DNA from: Luteimonas huabeiensis HB2
GTDB taxonomy: Bacteria > Pseudomonadota > Gammaproteobacteria > Xanthomonadales > Xanthomonadaceae
DNA: 64,000 bases
Assembly (NCBI RefSeq): GCF_000559025.1
Contig: NZ_JAAN01000020.1
Location: forward strand, 1-64,000
Direction of reading: 5' to 3'
Of the stretch, positions 22,080 through 26,404 are shown piece by piece. The position numbers and the translations under genes were made by a program. The notes under the pieces are model-generated. The model was not told the DNA's origin, did no database searches, and saw only the letters and a list, made by a program, of their open reading frames with translations. How positions within the stretch are numbered: position 1 is the first letter of the stretch; each line of letters starts with the position of its first letter.

Positions 22080-22634
22080 GTGGAGGATCCCGGCCCGCCC
22101 GGCAGCGGGTTCAAGACCCGCCGCCTGCGGTTGCACCCGCTGGGTGCCGGCGACCGCGCGCTCTACCTCCGGCTGTACGGCGATCCGGCCACCATGCGCG
22201 AGGTGGGGACCGCGCTGGCTCCGGCCGCGGCCGCGCGCGCCTTCGACGCGGTACTCGCGACGTTGGCTACCGATCCGCCGGGCGCCGCCTACTGGGTGTT
22301 GCGCGATGCCGCGGGCGAGGGCTTCGGCCTGATGGCGCTGGTATTCGATGCCGCGCGCGCCAGCGCGGAACTGGGCCTTCTGCTGCCGCCGTCCCGGCAG
22401 GATCGGGGCTACGCCAGCGAGGCGATCGGCGGCCTGCTGCCCAGGCTGCGGGCGTTTCCGGGGCTGGCTTCGGTCTGGACCCGCCACCGCGAGGGCCACC
22501 ATGGCGCAGCCGGGCTGATGCGCCGAACGGGGTTCGTCGCCGACGGGAACCGCGACGGCTACGCGCGCTGGCGCCTGGACCGGGCCGGGTGGCCGGCCCG
22601 CCCGGGCTTTGCATCGGTGCCGGAACGAGAATAG
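22080..22634 (+). CDS. GNAT-family N-acetyltransferase
   Basis: A 184-residue cytoplasmic protein of the RimJ/RimL-like GNAT family: TRRLRLHPLGAGDRALYLRL at the N-terminus, a strand with FGLMALVFD, the acetyl-CoA loop region SRQDRGYASEAIGGLLPRLR (the R/Q-x-x-G-x-A/G type pattern) and HHGAAGLMRRTGFVADG near the end. Start is a GTG 11 bp after the M20 gene; no ATG fits. It ends 28 bp before the borosin-type methyltransferase gene. It may acetylate the peptide product or an unrelated small molecule. Confidence 0.85.
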   Translation: MEDPGPPGSGFKTRRLRLHPLGAGDRALYLRLYGDPATMREVGTALAPAAAARAFDAVLATLATDPPGAAYWVLRDAAGEGFGLMALVFDAARASAELGLLLPPSRQDRGYASEAIGGLLPRLRAFPGLASVWTRHREGHHGAAGLMRRTGFVADGNRDGYARWRLDRAGWPARPGFASVPERE

Positions 22635-22662: not shown

Positions 22663-23481
22663 ATGGGCGGACGGGGGCGACTCGCCTGCGTGGGACTGGG
22701 CATGATGCTCGGGGCGCATCTGGCGCCGCGCGCGCGCAGCCATATCGAGCAGGCCGACGTGGTGTTCGTCGCGGTCTCCGATCCCCTGGTCGAACTGTGG
22801 GTGCAGCGCATGCACCCGGACGTGCGCAGCCTGCAACTTTTCTATGCCCCTGGCCGGTCGCGCCACGACAGCTACCGCGACATGGTCGAGGCGATGCTGG
22901 CGGAAGTGCGCGCGGGGCGCTCGGTCTGCGGCGCGTTCTACGGCCATCCCGGCGTGTTCGCCGCCGTCCCGCACCGCGCCGTCGCGCAGGCGAGGGAGGA
23001 GGGGTTCGACGCGCGCATGGAGCCCGGCATCTCGGCCGAGGACTGCCTCTACGCCGACCTCGGGATCGATCCCGGCCGGGTCGGCTGCCAGCACTACGAA
23101 GCCAGCCAGTTCATGTTCTACCGGCGCCGCGTCGATCCGTCCGCCTACCTGGTGCTGTGGCAGGTGGGGGTGGCCGGCGACCGCTCGGTCAGACGCGCCT
23201 CGACCGGTGCGGCGCACCGTCGGCTGCTGGTCGAGCGGCTGCGCGAGGACTATCCGGCCGGGCACCTCGTGTGGCTGTACGAAGCTGCTACGCTGCCGAT
23301 CGCCGCGCCCCGCACGGACGCCGTGCCGCTGTCGGCCCTGGCGGACGCGCCGACCGCGCAGCACACGACGCTCGTCGTGCCGCCGGCGGTGCCGCTGCAG
23401 CGCGACGAGGCGATGCTCGCGCGGATCGCGCGACTGGAATGCCAAGCGGACGTATGGGCCGGCGCGCCGGCCGGGAACTGA
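22663..23481 (+). CDS. Borosin-type peptide alpha-N-methyltransferase (split type)
   Basis: A 272-residue SAM-dependent enzyme of the tetrapyrrole-methylase fold. It matches the methyltransferase domain of fungal OphMA and bacterial split borosins. The catalytic region LFYAPGRSRHDSYRDMVEAM keeps Tyr61, Arg67 and Tyr71, which align with OphMA Tyr66, Arg72 and Tyr76. Next come GAFYGHPGVFAAVPHRA, AREEGF, PGISAEDCLYADLGIDP and LWQVG, near-diagnostic for the family; siroheme and cobalamin methylases lack this combination. Unlike OphMA, no core peptide is fused at the C-terminus; the candidate substrate is the next gene, 18 bp on. I chose the ATG at 22663 (GGGGA upstream) because the GLG motif lies close to the N-terminus, as in relatives. 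Predicted reaction: iterative methylation of backbone amides of the precursor. Confidence 0.88.
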   Translation: MGGRGRLACVGLGMMLGAHLAPRARSHIEQADVVFVAVSDPLVELWVQRMHPDVRSLQLFYAPGRSRHDSYRDMVEAMLAEVRAGRSVCGAFYGHPGVFAAVPHRAVAQAREEGFDARMEPGISAEDCLYADLGIDPGRVGCQHYEASQFMFYRRRVDPSAYLVLWQVGVAGDRSVRRASTGAAHRRLLVERLREDYPAGHLVWLYEAATLPIAAPRTDAVPLSALADAPTAQHTTLVVPPAVPLQRDEAMLARIARLECQADVWAGAPAGN

Positions 23482-23499
23482 GGGGAAGAGGGGACTGCG

Positions 23500-23802
23500 A
23501 TGTCGGATGCGATCGGCTTTCTGGACACGATGGGGCGGGGCGCCTTCGCGGCGGACCCGGGTGCCGCGTACGCGGCAGCGGTCGAGGCGCTACAGATCGA
23601 CGCAAGCCAGCGCGAGGCGCTGCGCGCGCGCGATGGCGCGGCGCTCGGGCGGCTGTTGCGGGCGCGGGCGCTCATGATGTGCATGGTCGCCACGCCCGAC
23701 CAGGGCGAAACCGAGGGCCCGCTCGATTCGCCCGATCGCGATGAGGAAGACGACCGGGACGATCGCGGTGACCGAGACGGCATCCGATTCGATCCCGACT
23801 GA
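23500..23802 (+). CDS. Candidate borosin precursor peptide
   Basis: A 100-residue protein 18 bp after the methyltransferase gene, with a purine-rich ribosome site. Residues 1-52 form a helical leader (GFLDTMGRGAFAADPGAAYA, LQIDASQREALRARDGAALG) like the small helical domain that split-borosin precursors use to bind the enzyme; the pattern 'ADPxAA...QREAL...DxxALxRLL' is typical of it. Residues 57-67, ALMMCMVATPD, are hydrophobic and are the likely methylated core. From 69 on, the tail is extremely Asp/Glu/Arg-rich (SPDRDEEDDRDDRGDRDG). No other function suggests itself. Precursor identity is inferred from position, size and layout; the exact core limits are not proven. Confidence 0.75.
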   Translation: MSDAIGFLDTMGRGAFAADPGAAYAAAVEALQIDASQREALRARDGAALGRLLRARALMMCMVATPDQGETEGPLDSPDRDEEDDRDDRGDRDGIRFDPD

Positions 23803-23831
23803 AGGGATGCGCTGCGCAGGAAGCACACGCC

Positions 23832-25652
23832 ATGAGATCGGTCCGGCACGGTGTCATGCTCGTCACGTTGCTCGCCTTGGCGCCCACCGCCGTGGCGAAT
23901 CCGTCCTTCGATACGTTGCTCGACGAGGCGGTGTCGGTCCGGACGTCGGACGTTGGCAGGTTCCGGGAATTGCTGGCCCGGCTGGATGAACTCGCGGCGT
24001 ACGCGACGCCGGCTCAGCGGACCCATCTTCGGTTGTTGCACGCCCATCGGTTGGTCATCGGTGGAGATCCCCAGGGCGCGATATCGCTGTTGGAGCCGAT
24101 CGTGTCCGGCGGTGCGTCCAGCGAGACCCGCTTCGAGGCGGGAGGACTGCTGGCCAACGTCTTCGCGATCACCCGGCAATTCGAGAAAGCCCTGGCGACA
24201 TTGGATCGGATCCTCCCGCTCCAGGACGAAGTCGCCCGCCGGGAGGTGCTGCATCGGGGGCAGCTCAGCGCGGGGATCGTCTACAACCAGGTCGGAGAAT
24301 TCGGGTTGGGGTTGCAGTTCGCTTCGAGAGTCCTGGCGGATCGGCCTGACGGACGCAGCCGCTGCATCGCGGAAAACCTGTCGCTCGAATCGCAACTGGG
24401 AAGAGGCGGCGGCTTCGATCGCGAGATGGCGGAGCGGGCGATTCGTCACTGCGATGCGCAGAAGGAGCCGATCCTGGCCGGGTTCTCGCGGACGTACCTG
24501 GCCCGTGCGCTGCATGCGCAGGGCAGCACGTCGGAGGCGATCGAGCTCCTTGCGGAGTATCTGCAGACGGTCGAGGACACGGGGTATCCGCTGCTGATCG
24601 CCCATTATCACGCCCTGCTGGCCGAATACCGCATGGCGACCGGGGACCGCGAGGCTGCCAGGATGCACGCGGAGCAGGCGGTATCGCAAACGCAGACGCT
24701 GGCACTGGTCAGCGCGGAACCGCTCGTGATCGCGTTTCGGACGCTGTACCGGCTGGCGGAAGAGCGCGCTGACCCGAAAGAGACGCTGGCCGCATATCGT
24801 GCGTTCGCCGAGGCCGACCGCGCGCACTTCAGCGACGTCAAGTCGCGCGAGATGGCCTACCAGATCGTGCGCCACCAGTCGCAGCAGCAGGCGCAGCAGA
24901 TCGAGCTGCTGAACCAGCGCAACGCGTTGCTCGAACTCGAGCGACGCGTCGCCCGCCAGCGCGCGCGGGCGTGGCTGGCGCTGGCGGTGCTGCTGGCCGG
25001 GTTGCTGGCGAGCATCGGCTACTGGGCGCTCAAGACCAAGCGCCTGCAGATGCGCCTGAAGCGCATGGCCGAGACCGACATGCTCACCGGCGTCGGCAAT
25101 CGCCATCACTTCACCCAGGAGGCCGAGCGGCTGCTGGCGCAATGCCGGCGCGAGGGCCGCGTCGCGGCGCTGCTGGCCTTCGACCTGGACCATTTCAAGC
25201 AGGTCAACGACCGCTTCGGCCATGCCGCGGGCGACTGGGCGCTGCAGCAGGTCGCCGCCGCCTGCCAGGCCCTGTGCGGCCCGGACGATCTCATCGCTCG
25301 CATCGGGGGCGAGGAATTCGCCATCTTGATGGTGGGCCGCGACGCCGCCGCGGGCCGGCGGGTCGCCGAGCAGGCGCTGGCGCGGCTGGCGGCGATCGAT
25401 GCGACATCCGCCGGCTACGACTTCCGGATCGGCGCCAGTTTCGGCGTCACCGACACCTGCCTCTCGGGCTACGGGCTGGAACGGATGCTGTCGCACGCCG
25501 ACCGCGCCATGTACGCGGCCAAACGCGCGGGGCGCAACCGTGTGCACCAAGCCGATGGCAGCGCCAGCGTGCTTGCCGTCGCCGGGTTCGCCGCCGGCGA
25601 TCCCGACGATCAGCCGAGGCCCACGCCGGCGCGCAGCGCGCTGGCGTCCTGA
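23832..25652 (+). CDS. Membrane-anchored diguanylate cyclase with TPR-like sensor region
   Basis: A 606-residue protein: signal peptide (VMLVTLLALAPTAVA), a long periplasmic helical-repeat region of about 350 residues resembling tetratricopeptide repeats, a coiled coil (HQSQQQAQQIELLNQRNALLE), one transmembrane helix (AWLALAVLLAGLLASIGYWA) and a C-terminal GGDEF domain. The active site is intact: TDMLTGVGNRHHF, FDLDHFKQVNDRFGH, RIGGEEFAIL. It should make cyclic di-GMP in response to a periplasmic signal. The ATG follows AGGAAG; the gene begins 29 bp after the precursor gene, with no terminator visible, so it may be co-transcribed with the borosin genes. The first kilobase looks less G+C-rich than the GGDEF part. 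Confidence 0.92.
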   Translation: MRSVRHGVMLVTLLALAPTAVANPSFDTLLDEAVSVRTSDVGRFRELLARLDELAAYATPAQRTHLRLLHAHRLVIGGDPQGAISLLEPIVSGGASSETRFEAGGLLANVFAITRQFEKALATLDRILPLQDEVARREVLHRGQLSAGIVYNQVGEFGLGLQFASRVLADRPDGRSRCIAENLSLESQLGRGGGFDREMAERAIRHCDAQKEPILAGFSRTYLARALHAQGSTSEAIELLAEYLQTVEDTGYPLLIAHYHALLAEYRMATGDREAARMHAEQAVSQTQTLALVSAEPLVIAFRTLYRLAEERADPKETLAAYRAFAEADRAHFSDVKSREMAYQIVRHQSQQQAQQIELLNQRNALLELERRVARQRARAWLALAVLLAGLLASIGYWALKTKRLQMRLKRMAETDMLTGVGNRHHFTQEAERLLAQCRREGRVAALLAFDLDHFKQVNDRFGHAAGDWALQQVAAACQALCGPDDLIARIGGEEFAILMVGRDAAAGRRVAEQALARLAAIDATSAGYDFRIGASFGVTDTCLSGYGLERMLSHADRAMYAAKRAGRNRVHQADGSASVLAVAGFAAGDPDDQPRPTPARSALAS

Positions 25653-25700
25653 GCGGCCTCTGGCCCGCATCGACATCCAGCGCGCGCCTCTCCACCGGCA

Positions 25701-25930
25701 AGCGGGGAGCGTTCTGTGTTTTCCTTCCCCCGCAGCGGGGAGCACTCTGTTTTCCCTTCCTCCGCGAGCGGGGGCACTCTGTTTTTCCCTTCCCGCGGGA
25801 GAAGGGACGGCATGCTTCCCGCTCGCGGGAGAAGGGACGGCATGCTTCCCGCTTGCGGGAGAAGGGACGGCATGCTTCCCGCTTGCAGGAGAAAGGACAG
25901 CATGCTTCCCCCTTGCGGGAGAAGGGGCAG
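25701..25930. repeat. Tandem array: four 30-bp units plus about three 33-bp units
   Basis: From 25801 to 25920 there are four head-to-tail 30-bp units, each built as GAAGGGACGGCATGCTTCCC then GC-TGCGGGA; a fifth partial copy follows at 25921. The first three differ by only a base or two, the fourth by a few. Upstream (about 25701-25797) are units of about 33 bp with CACTCTGTTTTCCCTTCC, like the array at 11.8 kb read from the other strand. Every unit carries the CCCGC/GCGGG inverted pair. The array fills the 323-bp gap between the convergent GGDEF and VOC genes; I see no gene in it. Confidence 0.88.
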
Positions 25931-25975
25931 TACGGCCTCGCAGGCAACGGACGGCTCCGGCGTTGCAGGTGCACC

Positions 25976-26404
25976 CTAGAACGTCACCCGGATCGATTCC
26001 GCGCTGCGCTGCGACGGGCCGTGGTAGACGGCCTCGATGTTGTTGCCGTCCGGATCGAGCACGAACGCGGCGTAGTAGCCGGGATGGTAGGCGCGCTCTG
26101 CCGGCGCGCCATTGCCGGTGCCGCCGGCGGCGATCGCGGCGCGGTGGAAGGCCTCCACCTTGGCGCGGTCGTGCGCCTGGAACGCGAGGTGATGGCGTCC
26201 CGTGAGCTGCCCCAGCGCGGCGGCGCTGTCGGCGCTCGTCACGAACAGCTCGTCGGCCCAGAACCAGCCGTCGCCGGTCCCGCCCATGGGCAGGCCCAGC
26301 GCGTCCAGTACCGCGGCGTAGAAGCGATGGCTGGCGTCGAGGTCGCGCACGACCAGCTGCAGGTGGTCGATCAGCCGGCCGCGGTGGATTTCGTCGGTGT
26401 CCAT
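25976..26404 (-). CDS. VOC (glyoxalase/bleomycin-resistance) family protein
   Basis: A 142-residue cytoplasmic protein with the two beta-alpha-beta-beta-beta units of the VOC superfamily. It shows DHLQLVVRDLDASHRFYAAV at the N-terminus (first His metal ligand), RHHLAFQAHDRAKVEAFHRA in the middle, and the terminal AAFVLDPDGNNIEAVYHGP with the Glu ligand. Members are lyases, isomerases, dioxygenases or antibiotic-binding proteins; the exact reaction is not predictable here. I use the ATG at 26404; another ATG two codons upstream is possible. It is convergent with the GGDEF gene across a repeat array. Confidence 0.9.
   Translation of the reverse strand: MDTDEIHRGRLIDHLQLVVRDLDASHRFYAAVLDALGLPMGGTGDGWFWADELFVTSADSAAALGQLTGRHHLAFQAHDRAKVEAFHRAAIAAGGTGNGAPAERAYHPGYYAAFVLDPDGNNIEAVYHGPSQRSAESIRVTF

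Follow-up and report, generated by a model that had tools for sequence, protein, structure and literature searches.

The 64,000-nucleotide stretch of Luteimonas huabeiensis HB2 analysed here (contig NZ_JAAN01000020.1, positions 1 to 64,000; hereafter the window) carries a locus that, by homology, encodes a split-borosin methyltransferase and a separate precursor peptide, followed by a predicted tetratricopeptide repeat (TPR)-GGDEF membrane protein, which probably acts as receptor for the peptide, itself presumably N-methylated; we hold this assignment with good confidence. The original prediction had described the enzyme and the precursor as a candidate split-borosin cluster and had overlooked the third gene, which lies directly downstream of the precursor (23832-25652). 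In several pairs of close relatives, the peptide core and the TPR domain were replaced together while the rest of the locus remained alike, so the methylated peptide is likely the signal that the receptor reads. We infer from these sequence comparisons that the borosin would serve as a polymorphic signalling peptide, perceived by a TPR receptor that controls the level of cyclic-di-GMP.

Joint replacement was revealed by comparing closely related loci (designated by L-numbers). In several close pairs, the enzyme, the precursor leader, and the GGDEF domain are 84-99% identical, while core and TPR fall together to 33-55%. The closest named relative in the locus search was Luteimonas sp. Y-2-2-4F (L001), whose enzyme is 90% identical to that of the window. 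DNA identity between these two loci was 0.84 for the GNAT acetyltransferase gene, 0.89 for the methyltransferase, and 0.90 for the leader, but 0.53 for core plus tail; within the sensor gene it was 0.62 for the TPR part, 0.92 for the membrane linker, and 0.87 for the GGDEF part. Followed in 60-bp steps, identity drops around the start of the core (23668) and recovers from the step at 24781 (residue 316), just past the solenoid; the first step (23401-23460) reads 0.60 owing to the unequal edge of the compared slices. Synonymous divergence (dS) was 0.31-0.37 for the methyltransferase, GNAT, and GGDEF parts, 1.01 for the TPR part, and 1.52 for core plus tail. This jump in dS points to replacement of the core-TPR segment by an older allele and not only to fast protein evolution.

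Among SonA clusters, the pair L150/L149 displayed the same breakpoints; those of L154/L153 were similar, but identity rose again more gradually at the TPR end. In L148/L149, identity was 0.99 for the methyltransferase, 0.96 for the leader, and 0.98 for the GGDEF part, with 0.33 for the core and 0.48 for the TPR part. The reverse pattern was seen in the Shewanella pair L149/L153, where the cassette is alike (0.85-0.95 in 18 of 20 steps) and the flanks are less alike (0.60-0.87). When the cores of the seven loci L148-L154 were sorted by eye, the type YQ(A/T)F(L/I)LVNHGNN went with one TPR type (L149 and L153, 0.91 alike) and the type YQSYL(V/I)IS with the other (L148, L150, L151, L152, and L154, 0.65-0.96 in the pairs listed); identity between the two TPR types was 0.45-0.54. 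In the Rheinheimera loci L036/L037, only the first precursor-sensor pair was swapped, leader included.

Across 41 disjoint pairs, the TPR part was more diverged than the GGDEF part in 37, and excess precursor divergence correlated with excess TPR divergence (rho 0.61, 0.69, and 0.64 in 19, 29, and 37 disjoint pairs). Three observations weigh against a general coupling of core and receptor: the core was more divergent than the leader in just 19 of the 41 pairs, clear swaps numbered five among the 19 closest pairs with many other pairs showing none, and partial Mantel tests did not single out the TPR part, so these tests are not taken as proof. Some pairs thus follow the ComQXPA pattern, with joint variation of the signal part and the receptor input domain against a conserved enzyme and output.

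The sensor also accompanies the enzyme across genomes. A tblastn search found a sensor homologue inside the locus in 74 of 76 loci. Among 150 genomes of the family, 51 had enzyme and sensor, eight the enzyme alone, one the sensor alone, and 90 neither (Fisher p 2.7e-30, which overstates the association because the genomes are related). In five of the eight enzyme-alone genomes the sensor proved to be fused to the enzyme and diverged under the first threshold; in G020, G036, and G116 no sensor lay within the stretch examined. At class level, the sensor occurred in five of ten enzyme genomes other than the window's own versus 1 of 366 without the enzyme. A TPR-GGDEF sensor was also noted at L099, in a genome (G142) without a methyltransferase match at E 1e-20 and with no precursor mapped beside it.

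Several gene orders were found (MT, methyltransferase; P, precursor; S, TPR-GGDEF sensor): GNAT-MT-P-S, MT-GNAT-P-S, MT-P-S, MT-GNAT-P-S-P-S, P-[S-MT fused], and P-S(kinase)-MT-S. Order was counted in 108 of 117 loci, most of them chosen because the enzyme or the sensor was present, omitting same-contig repeats (L100, L101, L103, L104, L117, L135) and near-identical second copies (L014, L053, L062). The nearest mapped feature upstream of the sensor was the precursor for 98 of 115 sensors; the remaining 17 comprised five after another sensor, five after the enzyme, and seven with nothing mapped within 3 kb. Viewed from the other side, 98 of 106 precursors had a sensor as the next mapped feature; for the others this was another precursor in five cases and the enzyme in one (L108), and two had nothing mapped after them (L109 and L024, the latter at a contig end). 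Precursor and sensor are the steadiest gene pair of the locus, and in L133 the pair stands with no enzyme within the 11 kb examined.

The TPR input is joined to three outputs: GGDEF, a hybrid histidine kinase, or GGDEF plus methyltransferase in one frame. In L125 and L126 the same solenoid follows the precursor directly and ends in the hybrid histidine kinase (PF00512, PF02518, PF00072). Solenoid, GGDEF, and methyltransferase are fused in nine of the 59 enzyme-bearing family genomes and in L075; these frames (L111, L112, L118, L137-L142, L075) have about 830-880 residues and a precursor match just upstream, SonA-like where the letters were examined. A TPR protein with an adenylate/guanylate cyclase output and a partial match to the sensor profile was seen at L136:4815-6836, with no borosin genes mapped nearby.

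These data bear on three other explanations. The locus could be an ordinary split-borosin cluster making a metabolite with another role (for example metal, redox, or antagonistic); the TPR-GGDEF protein would then respond to a different cue and do no more than regulate production. We judge this unlikely: the precursor holds its place before the sensor while the enzyme position varies, the pair can occur with no enzyme close by (L133), and core and TPR are exchanged jointly, whereas no such tracking of the core would be expected of a receptor for an unrelated cue. Known fungal borosin products such as omphalotin are metabolites according to passages of a review, however, and the five class-level enzyme genomes without a sensor indicate that the enzyme family does not depend on the sensor everywhere. 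Core and TPR could also be hitchhiking, as neighbours that sit in a recombination hot spot or that diversify under independent pressures, such as recognition of the TPR domain by phages or predators, and never touch each other. Their adjacency lets a single exchange move both, and the weak specificity of the Mantel tests agrees with this, but it is made improbable by breakpoints that, in several unrelated instances (window/L001, L150/L149, and, less sharply at the TPR end, L154/L153), lie close to the border of leader and core and to the end of the TPR domain, by like core types accompanying like TPR types across species (L149/L153), and by precursors directly ahead of TPR proteins with other output. 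That the precursor acts intracellularly and unprocessed, its leader or acidic tail touching the enzyme or the cyclase with no mature peptide signal, is highly improbable, since in the window pair core plus tail varies with the receptor and the leader does not, although the leader changes too in L036/L037, no export signal or exporter was noticed, and the enzyme-cyclase fusions would put the enzyme at the membrane beside the receptor.

The enzyme on which the signalling reading builds was largely as originally described. Its 272-residue frame runs from ATG 22663 to the stop at 23481, with the open frame extending upstream to TTG 22609, and both strings named as borosin methyltransferase motifs, GAFYGHPGVF and PGISAEDCLYADL, are present. 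Among PDB sequences it matched SonM with E 5.6e-74 (252 bits) and fungal borosins with about 1e-46 to 1e-51 (162-180 bits; OphMA about 1e-47), while the best tetrapyrrole methylase match had E 0.0022 and precorrin-2 methyltransferase scored 21 bits. As far as these E values rather than a tree can show, neither outcome named as refuting the earlier split-borosin call was seen: the enzyme is far nearer SonM and OphMA than the best tetrapyrrole methylase in the PDB, and the small protein accompanies its relatives (below), which supports the call. The parent Pfam family PF00590 is matched, and the six NCBIfam tetrapyrrole methylase matches all fell far under cut-off (best 33.7 versus 525 bits). 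A database search returned 5759 proteins at E <= 1e-20 among 7997 candidates scored, so the enzyme family is far from rare.

Tyr61, Arg67, and Tyr71, proposed as the catalytic residues, are all present; the equation of Tyr61 with OphMA Tyr66 is not certain, because the window loop is three residues shorter than that of SonM and the single Tyr61 may match Tyr63 or Tyr66 on the OphMA numbering and spacing that we assume. When the printed part of SonM was aligned with 103 methyltransferase stretches of the compared loci (104 sequences in all), SonM Y58, R67, Y71, and Y93 corresponded to window Y61, R67, Y71, and Y93, the Y, R, Y, and Y each occurring in 101 of 104. Mutation of these four SonM residues showed their importance, according to passages of PMC8429565. 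By homology, the window enzyme is a SonM-like borosin METHYLTRANSFERASE, the membership of the locus as a type IV-like split borosin is well supported, and, by analogy, the core is presumably N-methylated on its backbone.

The small protein placed 18 bases after the enzyme gene was recovered as a 100-residue frame (23500-23802), and beside homologues of the enzyme it was not absent: precursor profiles, built from the same loci they then scored, matched in 73 of 76 loci. Its AlphaFold2 (AF2) model places four helices within residues 3-52 and shows no further helix beyond them, consistent with the helical leader expected. Conservation, the profile matches, and these helices argue that the frame is more than chance. 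The leader and its counterpart in the closest relative share 84% identity (nonsynonymous divergence, dN, 0.08; dS 0.16). It resembles the SonA leader in sequence and predicted fold: the best PDB sequences for the precursor profile were SonA leaders, and, of 31 Foldseek matches to the precursor model, 26 were chains of OphMA, dbOphMA, or SonA, although no single match was strong (best E 0.89). As the original prediction held, the core is unlike that of SonA; it contains a cysteine, in a column with Cys in 62 of 83 relatives, and is followed by the acidic tail. By ungapped count from the leader, the methylated SonA residues L63 and I65 (passages of PMC8429565) are predicted to correspond to window M62 and A64. 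A double-glycine cleavage site before the core, seen as LLGG in several relatives, was rejected for the window, which reads LLRAR; Gly stands at the first of the two positions in 35 of 83 relatives. Three different precursors in tandem ahead of one sensor were observed at L017:5846-6682.

By the criteria of its GGDEF domain, the sensor is predicted to be a diguanylate cyclase; the GG[DE]EF motif is intact in all 61 sensors compared, as GGEEF in the window. The inhibitory RxxD site (window 25278-25319) reads GPDD in the window and GPHD in L001, and RxxD in 47 of 61. Hydropathy at the N-terminus exceeded a crude threshold in 46 of 61 sensors, window included, and a membrane-like stretch precedes the GGDEF domain in 60 of 61. 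In the predicted structure (mean pLDDT 92), one long helix (residues 315-414) contains the membrane stretch. Pfam TPR matches were weak, under cut-off, and agree with the solenoid. Diguanylate cyclase chains were among the matches listed for the whole sensor in Foldseek, and TPR matches came from VIA-align on the Foldseek list. Solenoid cysteines 178 and 207 are invariant in 61 of 61 relatives and would fit a periplasmic disulfide. The window genome has 12 GGDEF matches, one with a TPR solenoid.

The same third gene accompanies Shewanella borosins, where a SonM-type enzyme match at E 1e-40 was found in 67 of 77 genomes. All 20 SonM-type loci examined (of 66) have, like the window, a TPR-GGDEF gene next (MT-P-TPR-GGDEF), and all 20 second-type loci examined (of 25) have GNAT-MT-P-TPR-GGDEF, as in the window. 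The L150 precursor is identical to the printed SonA leader over 58 residues, is 71 residues long, and has L63 and I65; because its cluster includes the TPR-GGDEF gene, the characterised SonM/SonA cluster very probably carries this gene too. SonM/SonA of Shewanella oneidensis, a type IV split borosin with crystal structures (passages of PMC8429565), shares with the window the separate methyltransferase and precursor, their order, the catalytic residues, and a related leader. The window locus differs in its enzyme (47% identical to SonM over 251 aligned residues), in the GNAT gene that precedes it, and in a precursor with a cysteine core and a 33-residue acidic tail, the tail being absent from SonA (71 residues, core 62-71).

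The four genes lie on one strand, separated by 28, 18, and 29 bases (Table 1), and the window genome (4.3 Mb, 86 contigs) has one methyltransferase copy. By tblastn, 53 of 76 loci contain a GNAT homologue, and many relatives have a GNAT gene on one side of the methyltransferase or the other. Among the other flanking genes, the M13 peptidase has relatives in 6 of 86 loci, the M20 peptidase in 8, and the LysR gene in 1, each count including the window. Open reading frame clustering of the 86 loci gave, beyond the genes described, mostly antisense frames over enzyme or sensor and single-group neighbours. The only recognised extra neighbour common to several groups was a pepsin-like peptidase (12 loci), and no exporter stood out among the components listed. 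Directly after the sensor gene, window positions 25610-25979 contain short repeat units, with frames of repeated GRRDGMLPA or KHAVPSPASG on either strand.

Table 1. Predicted features of the borosin-sensor locus in the window.
Feature	Position	Strand	Basis
GNAT acetyltransferase, PF13302; candidate tailoring enzyme (inferred role)	22080..22634	+	Pfam 1e-14
Split-borosin alpha-N-methyltransferase, SonM-like, 272 aa	22663..23481	+	Homology, kept residues
Precursor peptide, 100 aa	23500..23802	+	Open frame, precursor profile, leader similarity
Leader / borosin-binding domain, residues 1-56	23500..23667	+	Four predicted helices
Predicted core ALMMCMVATPD, residues 57-67	23668..23700	+	Position relative to leader, Cys column
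Acidic follower tail, residues 68-100	23701..23799	+	45% Asp+Glu
Proposed specificity cassette, core to TPR end	23668..24780	+	60-bp DNA identity 0.43-0.72, flanks 0.80-1.00 (vs Y-2-2-4F)
Predicted receptor, TPR - membrane helix - GGDEF diguanylate cyclase, 606 aa	23832..25652	+	Pfam, predicted structure, tblastn
N-terminal hydrophobic segment (predicted signal peptide or anchor)	23832..23906	+	Crude hydropathy
TPR-like helical solenoid, residues 26-311, predicted periplasmic	23907..24764	+	Predicted structure, weak Pfam
Predicted membrane helix, residues 379-400	24966..25031	+	Hydropathy
GGDEF domain; GGEEF at 25305-25319	25068..25541	+	PF00990 2.5e-37

If the locus signals as proposed, the helical leader would dock on the enzyme, which would then methylate amides along the backbone of the hydrophobic core, as in SonM/SonA, and a peptidase would cut the core free. 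From there the peptide would pass into the periplasm or to another cell nearby, and backbone methylation could, speculatively, aid membrane crossing; the core would be recognised by the TPR solenoid, predicted to be periplasmic, and the cytoplasmic GGDEF domain, with its GGEEF intact, would change cyclic-di-GMP. Some relatives have a candidate peptidase gene beside the enzyme, the pepsin-like aspartic peptidase found near borosin genes at L002:2892-4169 and 11 more loci (Lysobacteraceae, Shewanella, Alteromonadales). The PF00026 profile had no match in the window genome, though it also matched nothing in the control, and a search of the window genome with the L002 neighbour (PF00026 4.6e-12) gave no hit at E 1e-8. 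The same query matched 10 of the 150 family genomes, all ten with a methyltransferase (Fisher 5.4e-5). Shewasin A is said to be a borosin peptidase.

Rap-Phr and related TPR peptide receptors are cytoplasmic and have other outputs, unlike the predicted periplasmic TPR domain of the window; other TPR proteins align equally well to the sensor, and the common fold shows no function. ComQXPA of Bacillus, as described in passages of PMC4008528, likewise comprises a modifying enzyme, a peptide with a variable signal end and a more conserved pro-part, and a receptor with a variable input domain and conserved cytoplasmic part; it forms strain types, and the cassette pattern found here resembles that of ComX-ComP. 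It differs in isoprenylation instead of N-methylation, a multi-pass membrane input, a histidine kinase output, and a Gram-positive host. A GGDEF domain in a borosin architecture is explained in the Figure 1 legend of PMC11395268, the one paper in the literature searched to mention borosins and GGDEF together, so the borosin-GGDEF gene link is already in print; that architecture may be the fused form of the nine genomes. Unlike the present analysis, the passages of PMC11395268 describe no TPR receptor, precursor-sensor pairing, or cassette exchange. No joint mention of borosins and cyclic-di-GMP occurred in the literature searched, with the split-borosin surveys Imani 2022, Cho 2022, and Lee 2024 outside its scope. 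Our claim to novelty rests on the precursor-sensor pairing and the cassette exchange, not on the GGDEF neighbourhood itself.

More broadly, and with confidence somewhat above even, we propose that SonA and the other split borosins of this clade serve as pheromones in a language common among Gram-negative bacteria. In it, a periplasmic TPR receptor would read the backbone-N-methylated peptide and set cyclic-di-GMP or a phosphorelay, and interchangeable core-plus-TPR cassettes would divide close relatives into types that do not communicate and would move from species to species. The literature passages searched state no cellular role for bacterial split borosins; if core and TPR are ligand and receptor, a bacterial borosin product would gain a function. 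A ribosomal N-methylated peptide would then join the few known kinds of peptide signal, one class of diguanylate cyclase would gain a ligand, and natural sets of matched and mismatched pairs would be available.
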